Below, one piece after another: positions 2 to 5,122 of a stretch of DNA of 10,443 nt (position 1 is the first letter of the stretch; each line of letters starts with the position of its first letter). Under the pieces are notes generated by a model. That model made no database searches and was not told the origin of the DNA. It saw only the letters and a list, made by a program, of their open reading frames with translations. This DNA comes from Hyphomicrobiales bacterium. Its GTDB lineage: Bacteria > Pseudomonadota > Alphaproteobacteria > Rhizobiales > Aestuariivirgaceae. Location of the stretch: positions 1 through 10,443 of the forward strand of contig JALVRJ010000332.1 of the NCBI GenBank assembly GCA_027031305.1. Direction: 5' to 3'. The position numbers and the translations under genes were made by a program.

Positions 2-253
2 CCCAACGCCCGGCCCACGCTCATGGGCTTCCCCGTGGTGGAGGTGGAGACCATGCCGGACATCGCCGCCGGCGCGCACGCCATTGCGTTTGGCGACTTC
101 CGCCGTGGCTACCTGGTGGTGGATCGCACCGGCGTGCGCGTGCTGCGCGACCCGTTCACGGCCAAGCCGTATGTGCTGTTCTACACCACGAAGCGCGTCG
201 GCGGCGGCGTGCAGGACTTCGCCGCCATCAAGCTGCTGGAATTCAGCGTGTAA
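2..253 (+). CDS. HK97-fold major capsid protein, C-terminal 83 residues (RcGTA g5 type), partial at left edge
   Basis: The reading frame is open from the window edge and ends at TAA 251-253. The 83 visible residues (…RPTLMGFPVVEVETMPD… then …RGYLVVDRTGVRVLRDPFTAKPYVLFYTTKRVGGG…) look like the end of a phage HK97-type major capsid protein: the LMGFPVV segment, a GDF-x(3)-Y turn, the RD-PF pair and the final FYTTKRVGGGV…A-IKLLEFS strand are typical of that family. By family knowledge it forms the head shell. It is followed by the connector, stopper and tail genes in RcGTA order, which supports the call. An ATG at position 23 is internal and is not the start. The first three quarters or so of the gene, and the portal and protease genes expected before it, are outside the window. 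Confidence 0.85.
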   Translation, partial: PNARPTLMGFPVVEVETMPDIAAGAHAIAFGDFRRGYLVVDRTGVRVLRDPFTAKPYVLFYTTKRVGGGVQDFAAIKLLEFSV

Positions 254-277
254 TCAACGAGCAGGGCGGCATTTTCC

Positions 278-416
278 CGTCACCCCGGCGCAAGCCGGGG
301 TCTCGTGCCACAGACGATGCACTGGCGAATTTCTCGTCATCCTGGCGAAAGCCAGGATCTCGGGTCACAGGCTCATGTATCAATGGCGTGAGATACCGGC
401 TTTCGCCGGTATGACG
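278..416. repeat. Composite palindromic repeat, copy 1: three REP-like hairpins in the gap after the capsid gene
   Basis: Three stem-loops are visible: 283-300 (7-bp stem, loop GCAA), 339-358 (8-bp stem, loop GAAA) and 393-412 (8-bp stem, loop TTTC). The first two carry CGTCA on their left; the third is inverted, with ATGACG on its right, so the layout is forward-forward-reverse. Units 2 and 3 also pair with each other: CTCGTCAT at 333-340 against ATGACGAG at 411-418, and GGCGAAAGCC at 344-353 against GGCTTTCGCC at 398-407. The block could therefore fold as one imperfect palindrome of about 85 bp. The same arrangement recurs at 3281-3420 with matching spacing. The pattern resembles REP/BIME elements known in many proteobacteria; the specific family is not identified. 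Confidence 0.85.
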
Positions 417-467
417 AGGAAAATGTCCAGCGAAGATATATATGACCGCACCCTGAACACGCGAACA

Positions 468-500
468 GGGCAGGGGGGCGCTCTCACGCGCTCCCCGCCC
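468..500 (+). promoter_or_regulatory. Very stable hairpin between capsid and connector genes (possible partial terminator or mRNA stabiliser)
   Basis: Positions 468-481 pair with 488-500 around a 6-nt loop (TCTCAC, 482-487). The result is a 13-bp, almost all G-C stem with one G·U pair (477/492) and one bulged A (472). It is not part of the repeat at 278-416 and has no second copy in the window. It ends 30 bp before the start of the connector gene. What follows is pyrimidine-rich (ACCTTCCCTTCC) but is not a run of T, so it is not a classic intrinsic terminator. Placement just after the most abundant structural gene suggests a role in separating capsid expression from downstream expression; this is inference. 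Confidence 0.5.
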
Positions 501-530
501 ACCTTCCCTTCCAAACGACAAGAGGCTCTC

Positions 531-1091
531 ATGCCGCTACAGAACGTCTCGCCGCCGGGCGGGCTGGCGGTGTCGCTCGCCCGTGCGAAGGAACATCTGC
601 GCGCCGACGATACCGCCGACGATGCGCTCATCACCGACATGATCGCCGCCGCCACCCGCCGCATCGAACGGGAAACGGGCCTGGCGCTCGTCACCAGCCA
701 GTGGCGGCTGCTGGCGGATGCCATGCCGCGCGATTGCACCTTCCGCATCCCGCTCGCGCCCGTCGCCAGCATCGACGAGGTCGCCGTGCGCACGGAAAGC
801 GGCTGGCAGACGGTGCCGGCCAGCGATTGGCAGGCCGACCTCGCCGCGCGCCCGGCCCGCCTCGTCGCCAGCGGTGAATGGCCCCGGCCCGATGGTGCGC
901 CGGGCGCCATCCGCATTACCTTCACCGCCGGCTTCGGCGCCACGCCGGAGGCCGTGCCGGAGGAGCTGCGCATGGCCGTGCTCATCCTCGCCGCGCACTA
1001 TTACGAATTCCGCGAGGGCGGCGCCGCGCCGAAAGGCCTGCCGCCGGAGGTCATTTCCCTCCTCACGCCGTGGCGGAACATCTCGCTCTGA
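531..1091 (+). CDS. Head-tail connector protein, gp6-like (RcGTA g6 type)
   Basis: This 186-aa protein fits the phage head-tail connector family (HK97 gp6-like / phiE125 gp8-like). It opens with a segment like LAVSLARAKEHLRAD and then DDALITDMIAAATRRIERETG-x-AL (about residues 15-55), the helical start characteristic of these connectors. A beta-rich middle follows with P-x-APVASIDEVAV (about 80-90). Near the end is a helix, PEELRMAVLILAAHYYEFREG (about 142-163). By family knowledge it forms a ring under the portal, on which the stopper and tail attach. The ATG at 531 is chosen because AGAGG (521-525) lies 5 bp upstream and the family N-terminus begins there. The frame is open much further upstream through the repeat, but that stretch is not protein-like. 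It lies 8 bp before the next gene. Confidence 0.8.
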   Translation: MPLQNVSPPGGLAVSLARAKEHLRADDTADDALITDMIAAATRRIERETGLALVTSQWRLLADAMPRDCTFRIPLAPVASIDEVAVRTESGWQTVPASDWQADLAARPARLVASGEWPRPDGAPGAIRITFTAGFGATPEAVPEELRMAVLILAAHYYEFREGGAAPKGLPPEVISLLTPWRNISL

Positions 1092-2761: not shown

Positions 2762-3100
2762 ATGCCGCGTTCGCCGGACATCATCGCCTGTCTGAACGGC
2801 GAGAAATATCGCCTGCGCCTCACTCTGGGCACGTTGGCCGAACTGGAGGAGGCGCTGGGCGCCGATAGCCTCCTGGCGCTGGTCGAGCGTTTCGAGCAGG
2901 GCCGCTTCACCAGTCGCGATCTCATCCGCCTTGTTGCCGCCGGCCTGCGCGGCGCGGGCCATGCCGTCACCGACGAGGAGGTGGCGGGGATGACCCATCC
3001 GGACGGCGTGCAGGGCTTCGTCACGCTGGCCGCGCACCTGCTGGCTGCCGCTTTCCCCGCCGTGAATTCGCGGCAAAGCGTGCCGGACGGGCAAACATGA
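2762..3100 (+). CDS. GTA gp10-like tail assembly protein (Phage_TAC_11 / DUF3356 type)
   Basis: The 112-aa protein has the pattern of the RcGTA g10 family. A short N-terminal beta hairpin (residues about 9-18, LNGEKYRLRLTLGTLAELEEALG) is followed by the 'L…L-x-L-GeLaeLE-xa' helix start. Next comes a linker with F-EQGRFTSRDLIRLVAAGLRGAGHAVTDEEV (about 44-73). The helix-turn-helix run 'D-hh-hhaagLrgaG…t-eeVa-m' is characteristic. A final alanine-rich helix (LAAHLLAAAFP) precedes a short polar tail. By family assignment it is a tail assembly chaperone-like protein that would act with the tape measure protein. Its stop is reached by an ATGA overlap (3097-3100) with the next small gene, so the pair is probably translationally coupled. 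Confidence 0.8.
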   Translation: MPRSPDIIACLNGEKYRLRLTLGTLAELEEALGADSLLALVERFEQGRFTSRDLIRLVAAGLRGAGHAVTDEEVAGMTHPDGVQGFVTLAAHLLAAAFPAVNSRQSVPDGQT

Positions 3101-3276
3101 CCCGATTTCCTTTCCAGCGGCTTTACGTGCTGGCGGTGCTGCGGCTGGGGATTGCGCCATCGGAGTTCTGGGGCATGACCCCGCGCGAGCTGTTCGCGTT
3201 GCTGAAGCACGCGCTGCCACCCGCGCCGCCTGACCGCGCCACCCTGGAAGACCTCATCAGGCGCTATGGTGATTGA
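3097..3276 (+). CDS. 59-aa tail assembly chaperone, Phage_TAC_6 / TIGR02216 type (RcGTA g10.1 type)
   Basis: A 59-codon gene starts at ATG 3097, inside the ATGA overlap with the gp10-like gene, and ends at TGA 3274-3276. It is short enough to be missed by a 60-codon cutoff. The protein starts MTRFPFQRLYVLAVLRLGIAP and continues SEFWGMTPRELFALL (residues about 22-36). The 'RLG-x-x-P-x-eFW-x-mTP-rEL' core is the signature of this small phage/GTA family, which sits directly before the tape measure gene in RcGTA-like clusters. The C-terminus (DRATLEDLIRRYGD) is a short helix, also typical. In RcGTA this gene follows g10, as here. By comparison with other siphoviruses the pair g10/g10.1 probably assists tape measure folding; that role is inferred. 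Confidence 0.85.
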   Translation: MTRFPFQRLYVLAVLRLGIAPSEFWGMTPRELFALLKHALPPAPPDRATLEDLIRRYGD

Positions 3277-3280
3277 AGAG

Positions 3281-3420
3281 CATTATCCCGGCGCAAGCTG
3301 GATTGCGTGCCATAGACTGCTGCATTTGTGAGTCTCTCGTCATCCTGGCGAAAGCCAGGATCTCAAGCCTCAGGCATATGCATCAAGTGGCACGAGATAC
3401 CGGCTTATGCCGGCACACCG
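3281..3420. repeat. Composite palindromic repeat, copy 2: degenerate three-hairpin element before the tape measure gene
   Basis: This is a second copy of the element at 278-416 in the same orientation. Hairpin 1 is decayed (3286-3303, with mismatch and G·U). Hairpin 2 is intact (ATCCTGGC 3342-3349, GAAA, GCCAGGAT 3354-3361). Hairpin 3 is CCGGC 3400-3404 with GCCGG 3409-3413. Distances match copy 1: 38 nt between hairpins 1 and 2 in both, and 34 versus 35 nt between 2 and 3. The spacers themselves are alike (for example CGTGCCA-AGAC and GGC-TATG-ATCAA), so the whole 140-bp unit is homologous, not just its hairpins. It begins 4 bp after the stop of the 59-aa gene and ends 21 bp before the tape measure start. 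Confidence 0.85.
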
Positions 3421-3441
3421 TGGAAAGACAGAGCAACCATC

Positions 3442-3984
3442 ATGCCCGATCAACTGGAAGAAGTCGTTATTCCCGTGCGGCTGGAAACGGCGCGCATGCG
3501 GCACGAGATGCAACAGATTCAGCGTCTTTCCGCCGGTTTCGCCAGCACCATCAGCCGTGGTTTCGCCGATGCCATCCTGTCGGGACGCAAGTTCTCCGAT
3601 GTATTGCGCTCCATCGCCCGCTCGCTCATCCGCATGTCCCTGCAGGCGGCGTTGAAGCCCCTGATCGGGGGTCTCACATCGGCCATTGGCGGCGCGCTGG
3701 GCAGTGTGATGCCCTTCGCTCGCGGTGGCGTGGTGAACGGCCCGACGCTCTTTCCCATGGCCCGCGGCATGGGGCTGATGGGCGAGGCCGGGCCGGAAGC
3801 GGTATTGCCGTTGGCGCGCGGGCCGGATGGCCGGCTGGGCGTGCGCGCGCAAGGTGGCGGTGCGGCGTCTGTCAACATAACCATGAACATCAGCACGCCA
3901 GATGCCGAGAGCTTCCGTCGCAGCCGTGGCCGCATCGCCGCCGAACTGGCCCGCGCCGTCGCCGAAGGCCAGCGCCAGCTATGA
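3442..3984 (+). CDS. Short tail tape measure protein (RcGTA g11 type)
   Basis: The 180-aa product has the RcGTA g11 layout. An N-terminal helical part (LETARMRHEMQQIQRLSAGFASTISRGFADAILSGR, about residues 14-49) is followed by FSDVLRSIARSLIRMSLQAALKPLIGGL (about 51-78), with a glycine-rich hydrophobic continuation. Next is the conserved FARGGVVNGPTLFPMARG-x-GLMGEAGPEAVLPL block (about 92-125), and then a C-terminal segment with VNITMNISTPDAESFRRS. The 'GG-V…G-T-F…G-x-x-G-x-x-GE-AGPEA-h-P-L' block is shared with lambdoid tape measure C-termini. It would set tail length and occupy the tube. The ATG at 3442 is chosen from the family start; no clear Shine-Dalgarno is seen, perhaps because the upstream DNA is repeat. 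Its TGA overlaps the stop of the antisense nucleotidyltransferase gene. Confidence 0.8.
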   Translation: MPDQLEEVVIPVRLETARMRHEMQQIQRLSAGFASTISRGFADAILSGRKFSDVLRSIARSLIRMSLQAALKPLIGGLTSAIGGALGSVMPFARGGVVNGPTLFPMARGMGLMGEAGPEAVLPLARGPDGRLGVRAQGGGAASVNITMNISTPDAESFRRSRGRIAAELARAVAEGQRQL

Positions 3985-4305
3985 CAAGGCAGCCATCTGA
4001 TGATTGGCGGCATGCAGCGTCTTGCGCATTTTCTCGATGGAACGGATGAGATGTGGATTGCGCAGCGAGTGCCGGGTCAGAAGCTGCACGGGCTGGTCGA
4101 ACAGCCGCTCCAGCGCTTCCAGCAGCCCGAAATACTGATCCGCCGGCCCCATGCCGGGCGCAGGGTCGAACTCCACCAGCAGATCGATATCGCGCGGCTC
4201 TCCATCGTCGCGTGCCGCCGATCCGAACACGTCCAGCCGCCGCACATGATAGCACCGGCACAGCGTTTCGATGGCCGCGCGTTGTTTATCGATCACTGGA
4301 TGCAT
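3979..4305 (-). CDS. Solitary nucleotidyltransferase-fold protein (MNT-like, DNA polymerase beta superfamily), antisense to the tail genes
   Basis: The 108-aa product has the minimal nucleotidyltransferase pattern: FGSAAR with GS at residues 28-29, then D39-x-D41 in RDIDLLVEF. This fits the superfamily hG[GS]…DhDh motif. The third acidic position expected in the later 'VDLLT/VDLVT' strand is Gln here (Q74 in PVQLLT), so catalysis is uncertain. The C-terminus (SLRNPHLIRSIEKMRKTLHA) matches the 'RNP-x-h-x-x-SI-e-x-x-r-x-x-hYA' tail of stand-alone family members. Such proteins often pair with a HEPN (HepT) partner as an antitoxin, but no HEPN gene is adjacent. The start at 4305 is preferred over an ATG 24 bp upstream because AGGAGG lies 5 bp before it. 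Its TAG (3979-3981) overlaps the tape measure stop region by 6 bp. It is the only opposite-strand gene, hence probably an acquired cargo gene. Confidence 0.8.
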   Translation of the reverse strand: MHPVIDKQRAAIETLCRCYHVRRLDVFGSAARDDGEPRDIDLLVEFDPAPGMGPADQYFGLLEALERLFDQPVQLLTRHSLRNPHLIRSIEKMRKTLHAANHQMAALS

Positions 4306-4310
4306 CGTTT

Positions 4311-4316
4311 CCTCCT
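4311..4316 (-). promoter_or_regulatory. Strong Shine-Dalgarno (AGGAGG) of the nucleotidyltransferase gene
   Basis: On the minus strand AAAAGGAGG (4319-4311) lies 5 bp before the ATG at 4305-4303. This is a full match to the anti-SD and among the strongest in the window. It decides the start against the upstream in-frame ATG at 4329, which has no comparable site. Confidence 0.75.
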
Positions 4317-4355
4317 TTTCCCGGCTCAATCTACCACGAATAGGATGTTTCCGAA

Positions 4356-4994: not shown

Positions 4995-5122
4995 CGTCAT
5001 TGCCGGCCTTGTGCCGGCAATCCAGGGCCAAAATCTGCAAGGGCAATGGTGCGCCACATTTCATGCCTCACACTCACGTGCGCGTTGTCCTGGATGCCCG
5101 GAACAAACCCGGGCATGACGAG
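4995..5122. repeat. Inverted pair of REP-like hairpins of a second family, between g12- and g13-type genes
   Basis: The left unit reads CGTCAT (4995-5000) with a 9-bp stem, ATTGCCGGC (4999-5007) to GCCGGCAAT (5013-5021), followed by CCAGG. The right unit is its inverse: CCTGG, then an 8-bp stem, ATGCCCGG (5094-5101) to CCGGGCAT (5109-5116), then ATGACGAG. The hairpins thus face each other about 70 bp apart, with a non-palindromic core. The outer CGTCAT/ATGACG is shared with the 278-416 element. The loops and flanks (CCAGG instead of CTCGTGCC) differ, and there is no third hairpin, so it is a related but distinct type. It begins 9 bp after the g12-type stop and ends 29 bp before the g13-type start. 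Confidence 0.8.

Follow-up and report, generated by a model that had tools for sequence, protein, structure and literature searches.

A dispersed three-hairpin form of CGTC-tagged REPs in an alphaproteobacterial GTA-like gene cluster, with a hint of how the family moves

Two gene junctions within a GTA-like structural cluster of a Hyphomicrobiales bacterium contain what looks like the same palindromic element, which raises the questions of what the element is, whether it spreads as one unit and how two copies came to lie in one cluster. The element is ordinary in kind and unusual in form: it is a dispersed, inherited three-hairpin version of the CGTC-tagged REPs, and two-hairpin relatives in a sister species, Thermopetrobacter sp. 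TC1 (G003), hint clearly at the means by which the family moves.

Two copies in a GTA-like structural cluster

The window, meaning the whole stretch of 10,443 nucleotides that was analysed, is contig C332 of a 2.0-Mb genome (G000) which is 87% complete in 438 contigs. Profile matches identify in it a GTA-like structural cluster comprising the capsid end, connector, head completion, tail completion and tail tube genes, along with those for GTA-gp10, tape measure, DUF2460, baseplate hub and NlpC peptidase. The small open frame after GTA-gp10 is presumably a gp10.1-like gene. The hairpin order of the element is forward-forward-reverse (FFR), and its hairpins are termed F1, F2 and R. The relevant features are as follows.

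2..253, plus strand: C-terminal end of the major capsid gene (Phage_capsid, E 1.3e-24)
274..421, plus strand: copy 1 of the FFR element, flanked by the major capsid and head-tail connector genes (118.1 bits over positions 4-152 of 154, against a model whose training set includes it; fold z -9.6)
279..303, plus strand: hairpin F1 of copy 1, stem ACCCCGGC/GCCGGGGT
336..360, plus strand: hairpin F2 of copy 1, read as the extra module, stem ATCCTGGC/GCCAGGAT
391..415, minus strand: hairpin R of copy 1, stem ATACCGGC/GCCGGTAT
531..1091, plus strand: head-tail connector gene (TIGR02215, 135.9 bits against a cut-off of 39)
2762..3100, plus strand: GTA-gp10 tail protein gene (Phage_TAC_11, E 1.6e-27)
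3097..3276, plus strand: small tail-assembly gene, an open frame with 81% identity to G005 and 86% to G004
3278..3424, plus strand: copy 2 of the FFR element, between the gp10.1 and tape-measure genes (96.9 bits over positions 5-151, likewise a training copy; fold z -3.9)
3282..3306, plus strand: hairpin F1 of copy 2, decayed (score 19/25, stem 5.5/8)
3339..3363, plus strand: hairpin F2 of copy 2, intact (score 25/25, stem 8/8)
3395..3419, minus strand: hairpin R of copy 2, decayed (score 19/25, stem 7/8)
3442..3984, plus strand: tape-measure gene, RcGTA type (NF058675, 181 bits, under its cut-off of 220)

The original prediction, made from the letters of this stretch, was of one three-hairpin unit present twice with the same order, spacing and spacers, and this description holds. 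The hairpins span 279-415 and 3282-3419, F1 of copy 2 beginning 5 nt from the end of the small tail-assembly gene. With a 25-nt hairpin definition the gaps are 32 and 30 nt in copy 1 and 32 and 31 nt in copy 2; the gaps of 38 and 34 or 35 nt given earlier reflect a shorter definition. The spacers are homologous, with a 66-nt block 82% identical and a 39-nt block 77% identical, and the whole units share 79% identity in BLAST (E 4.9e-25). Such hairpins are not a product of chance, since 110 are found in the own-genome stretches examined (239,749 bases in 34 contigs, the window included, picked for holding matches) against 6 in one letter shuffle of the same stretches.

Copy 2 is the more decayed of the two, as had been proposed. 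Copy 1 folds at -88.1 kcal/mol (z -9.6) and copy 2 at -63.6 kcal/mol (z -3.9), none of 200 shuffles being as low in either case. The damage in copy 2 lies in the outer two hairpins, the middle one being intact. An unpaired CGTC (or TGTC, CCTC) present at one foot of the stems is gone from its F1 and R.

Other features of the window were also seen. A G+C-rich hairpin follows copy 1 at 472-500, and a G+C-rich palindromic repeat (CCTCCCCC..) occupies 2074-2130 in the junction that precedes the tail tube gene; sequences like it recur in stretches of G003. On the minus strand at 3979-4329, antisense between tape measure and DUF2460, a frame resembling an MntA antitoxin-type nucleotidyltransferase gives a weak, sub-cut-off match. 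A third REP-type dimer, with CCA-type tails, lies at 4995-5120 in the DUF2460-hub junction; by eye, G005 has this element at the corresponding junction, and G004 and G008 lack it.

The dimer family and its three-hairpin form

Each hairpin comprises a CGTC tag, an 8-bp stem, a 4-nt loop and a CTC tail. The window elements fit the CGTC-tagged REP superfamily of alphaproteobacteria rather than the RAYT-linked REPINs. The tail is CTC or near it in the window pair and in most dimers of the genome, and is not the usual CCA; this does not exclude membership, since CCA is reported for most, not all, members.

The original prediction had the whole triple, and not single hairpins, as the unit that spreads. 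The commonest unit in the stretches examined is a two-hairpin inverted dimer, with the head-to-head arrangement predominating, and the triple is a rarer long form. Among 44 F-R pairs tallied there, ACCCC on one side and ATTCC on the other are the most frequent stems. The spacing between hairpins is exactly 30 nt in 28 of the 42 pairs outside the window, and these 28 dimers align with 86% mean column identity. An exact CCTGG stem in F, typical of the middle FFR hairpin, occurs in only four of the 44 pairs. A complete or decayed F1 lies upstream in three of these (the two window copies and L030:8919), while the fourth (L034:1054) has at most a short F1-like remnant. As CCTGG F stems mostly have F1 or its decayed form upstream, the long form reads as a dimer to which a module of about 58 nt, F2 plus a spacer, has been added. 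A subset of dimers (L045, L065, L067) carries CCTGG-like stems in another context (ACCCTGG with ATGCTGG), with no long form.

Eleven FFR copies from five species and ten loci (pstS-pstC being represented in two species) align over 154 model positions with 73% mean column identity, spacers included. In the three stems 92.5% of cells are paired and 10 cells are changed on both sides, values which none of 500 shuffles reach; six stem pairs show both-side change, a number equalled or exceeded in 3 of 500 shuffles, the shuffle test taking no account of relatedness among the copies. A sequence-only model of the 11 copies yields, among the matches listed, at least 14 full-length matches of 82 bits or more (beginning no later than model position 10 and ending no earlier than position 143), distributed over six of the 11 genomes of the genus: five in G007, three each in the own genome and G010, and one each in G003, G004 and G005. 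Eleven of the 14 are in the model and three are not. Rows of 60-70 bits spanning most of the model were left out because dimers score in that range, and partial long forms, such as G007:C49 (27-152), were also left out. Across 49 family genomes outside the genus the best E among the matches listed is 2.8e-14, weaker than all 14 counted matches (weakest 2.7e-23). Decayed or interrupted long copies are also found in the own genome (L030 near 8884, L064 near 1796, L066 near 719). By eye, the L066 copy contains near 780-1000 an insert with inverted ends TAGGGTCTGG..CCAGACCCTA, and L113 (G005:C73) is interrupted too.

Three-hairpin units that agree in hairpin order, are spaced alike and have homologous spacers are thus found at other loci, which argues that the form spread as a unit, as the original prediction had it, and did so long ago. 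The identified neighbourhoods are pstS-pstC, a site beside cysK and the two GTA junctions. Both window copies do lie between structural genes, but the siting of the element is not GTA-specific.

Occupied and empty sites in related genomes

The junction between the small tail gene and the tape-measure gene (junction 2) holds the long form in G000, is empty in G005, where 6 nt separate stop and start, and holds a short F-R dimer in G004 at about the same offset from the stop. No such hairpins are present in the junction-2 loci of G008, G002, G006, G001 and G009. Sites can therefore be empty in a close relative, as had been expected of a mobile family, and this single site occurs empty, with the short form and with the long form. 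A CGTC dimer bounded by terminal inverted repeats (TIRs; L094 3071-3199) is also present in the GTA-like region of G003, where it lies in the connector-tape measure interval about 1 kb upstream of the tape gene and not in junction 2. At junction 1, between capsid and connector, no such hairpins were found in the scanned loci of G004, G008, G003, G001 and G006, and the connector has no match in G005. In G004 this junction (L080) contains an insert of low G+C, about 1.2 kb long, in which one reading frame resembles by eye a ClpP/SppA-type protease.

Outside the GTA-like cluster, the pstS-pstC junction carries the long form in G005 and G007, and half of it in G003, cut by an insertion in a hairpin. 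It has no element in G009, and none in the part present in G001, whose contig starts inside the junction. As this FFR is common to two species, with half of it in a third, at least one FFR is old and inherited. Taken with the states of junction 2, it appears that an FFR can lose or gain its module in place.

Gene trees around junction 2 are in conflict. A four-GTA-gene tree places G000 with G005 against G004 (98.9/99), and on this tree alone the occupancy of junction 2 in G000 and G004 requires either loss in G005 or two independent insertions. The genes upstream of the junction group G000 with G004 (92.8/86, 681 columns), those downstream group it with G005 (100/97, 1218 columns), and the tape gene alone does not resolve the three. 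Recombination near the element is one reading of this conflict; loss in G005, or two insertions, are others.

How, then, did two copies come to lie in one cluster? It had been suggested that they represent two insertions of different age, which is possible rather than established. The window copies share traits absent from the other nine aligned long copies: the R stem ATACC occurs in them alone among the 11, spacer 1 is 75% identical between them (the next best for copy 1 being 67%), and a tree of FFRs separates the pair from the nine others with a bootstrap of 82. On these sequences it is plausible that one copy descends from the other, or both from a shared parent in this lineage. That one arose from the other within the cluster, rather than by two separate insertions from outside, is a tentative proposal that we rate somewhat below even. 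It would account for the shared traits and for the presence within 3 kb of two of the at least three full-length FFRs in a 2.0-Mb genome, a coincidence of about 1% by simple arithmetic. However, no similarity was seen between the flanks of the two copies, so that duplication of a segment is unlikely; over the aligned unit copy 1 matches the G005 and G004 copies (75% each) no less closely than it matches copy 2 (74%); and junction 2 is occupied, in short form, in G004 too.

The same distribution bears on a possible role in RNA. The three-hairpin unit might have a function in the GTA, as a regulatory RNA or attenuator that selection retains in the two junctions. The very stable fold of copy 1 would suit such a role, and hairpins are seen in the capsid-connector junctions of G008, G001 and G006, some with T runs by eye, one of those in G006 scoring as terminator-like. 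Yet the element is missing from junction 1 in all five relatives scanned and from junction 2 in the six named above, copy 2 is decayed, and the same element stands at non-GTA loci. We therefore reject a GTA-specific function on account of the non-GTA copies, and regard such a selected regulatory role in the two junctions as very unlikely. A terminator reading of copy 1 was also discarded, as there is no terminator-like site in window 200-560, and no Rfam family reaches its cut-off within the window. In the transcript the long palindrome would probably be no more than a passive RNA stem, one that could shield or attenuate the capsid message upstream of it at its 3' end.

TIR-bounded dimers, movement and known systems

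In TC1 the CGTC dimer forms the core of an element 135 bp long, which has 15-bp TIRs (CAYACTACACGACAC) and makes 9-bp target duplications. There are 36 distinct TIR pairs, 34 in TC1 and two in G007, and 34 of the 36 have CGTC hairpins inside. The 9-mers flanking the pairs match at 7 or more positions in 19 cases, at 8 or more in 15 and exactly in 7, while shuffled pairing gives a mean of 0.4 and at most 3 at the first of these thresholds. The signal is confined to offset 3 (19 cases; offsets 0-2 and 4-7 give 0 or 1), and this sets the TIR length at 15 bp. Two groups with similar flanks, which are insertions into other repeats or were carried by them, account for six of the 19, so that at least 15 cases are independent; the 17 remaining pairs show no duplication at 7/9 or better. 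In a sample of 19 TC1 dimers taken from the best hits, all have at least one TIR and 15 have both (within 50 nt, with up to three mismatches), compared with both TIRs at 17 of 2000 random places in the G003 stretches. TIRs with 9-bp target duplications are the typical signature of a DDE transposase. The TC1 sequences thus support the view that CGTC REPs can be carried by a transposon of the DDE type, and two-hairpin members in TC1 keep the marks of transposon jumping.

The FFR copies of the window have no TIRs, and only one of 42 clusters in their genome has both. TIR remnants are kept in L031 of the own genome and in L053, identified by eye from its flanks as the corresponding copy in G007. 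Repeats of 8 nt or more flank 4 of 36 own copies against a control mean of 2.1, little excess. Since TIRs are generally missing from the own copies and repeats in their flanks are scarcely in excess, the TIR form may have arisen later, when a transposon captured the dimer in a different lineage, and not be the route of the window copies. Capture is favoured over loss of TIRs because CGTC dimers with diverse flanks are widespread in the account, in the sections drawn on here, of Di Nocera et al. (2013, PMC3733652). Separately, other insertions in G003 (L183-L186, L188, L199, L181) lie inside CGTC-repeat hairpins, as if the palindrome were a target, and one has a frame that by eye is transposase-like.

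A partner for the TIR elements was sought in TC1 with two transposase profiles, PF01609 and PF01797, and the stretches examined contain no autonomous element with these TIRs. At the six PF01609 loci, three have a single TIR-like match and none has a TIR pair around the gene. A TIR pair of about 620 bp was rejected as a candidate, being the small element itself split by an insert in which no convincing gene was seen, as were contig ends with an unpaired TIR, which mostly run into other insertions in a hairpin.

The original prediction looked to a tyrosine transposase of the RAYT type, which would move the hairpins as single-stranded DNA, and inverted hairpin dimers with conserved spacers do resemble REPINs. 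The Y1 profile (PF01797), however, finds no gene in the own genome or in its 10 congeners, of which one is 100% complete in 20 contigs and 3 of the 11 fall below a standard of 90% completeness and 5% contamination, whereas 5 of 14 control genomes are positive. The tag is CGTC rather than GTAG, and CGTC repeats are reported without association to transposase genes in the pertinent section of PMC3733652. RAYT-driven movement is consequently improbable.

We instead consider it likely that the window copies are long-form members of the CGTC-REP family, spread in trans by a transposase and interconverting in place with dimers. The ordinary member would be a head-to-head dimer of F1, about 30 nt and R, and the long form would have similar outer hairpins with the internal module of F2 and spacer. 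The family would have spread as a non-autonomous palindromic element into intergenic junctions, with dimer and long form exchanging when the direct repeats F1-spacer and F2-spacer slip against each other, and the window copies may once have moved as the TC1 elements did. A more far-reaching proposal, to which we give rather less than even credence, is that the CGTC REPs of the genus spread as the core of a DDE-type TIR element, the three-hairpin form being a second, ancestral mobile version made by duplication of the head module. As the junction-2 copy lies where the gene trees switch, the palindromes may also be crossover points in GTA clusters.

For the likelier reading, of long-form family members spread in trans, the nearest precedent is the CGTC-tagged REPs. 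As described in the parts of PMC3733652 cited here, these are mostly alphaproteobacterial, mostly head-to-head dimers, and 'apparently lack a dedicated transposase', with stems of 8-9 bp, loops of 4-5 nt and a tail that is mostly CCA; head-to-tail dimers are called negligible and grouped CGTC elements rare. The elements here share the CGTC tag, an 8-bp stem beginning A/T, the 4-nt loop, the head-to-head dimers, an alphaproteobacterial host and the absence of an associated tyrosine transposase, CGTC-1 being the nearest type by stem and loop length among those described there. They differ in the CTC tail, in the dispersed three-hairpin form with conserved spacers, which means that a CGTC group can be passed on and dispersed as a single unit, and in the TC1 and G007 dimers, which sit in TIR-bounded elements with 9-bp target duplications. 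Since that account ties no transposase to CGTC REPs, it leaves open the movement of a family widespread in alphaproteobacteria; the TIRs and duplications around the Thermopetrobacter dimers make the question testable, and help to explain how the family spread with no known transposase.

REPINs with RAYT share the inverted hairpin pair as a dispersed unit, but not the tag or, in the 11 genus genomes, the enzyme. Bacterial MITEs such as NEMIS and ERIC, as treated in the same parts of PMC3733652, resemble the TC1 and G007 form in being short, with TIRs and target duplications; here, however, the core is a CGTC REP dimer, the partner transposase was not found in the stretches examined and the window copies have no TIRs. 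In H. neapolitanus, CGTC-1 dimers lie inside 41-bp palindromes (PMC3733652), so that a REP dimer is regularly nested in an outer palindrome as in TC1; the section on that species names no target duplications, whereas 19 of the 36 outer palindromes described here have them.
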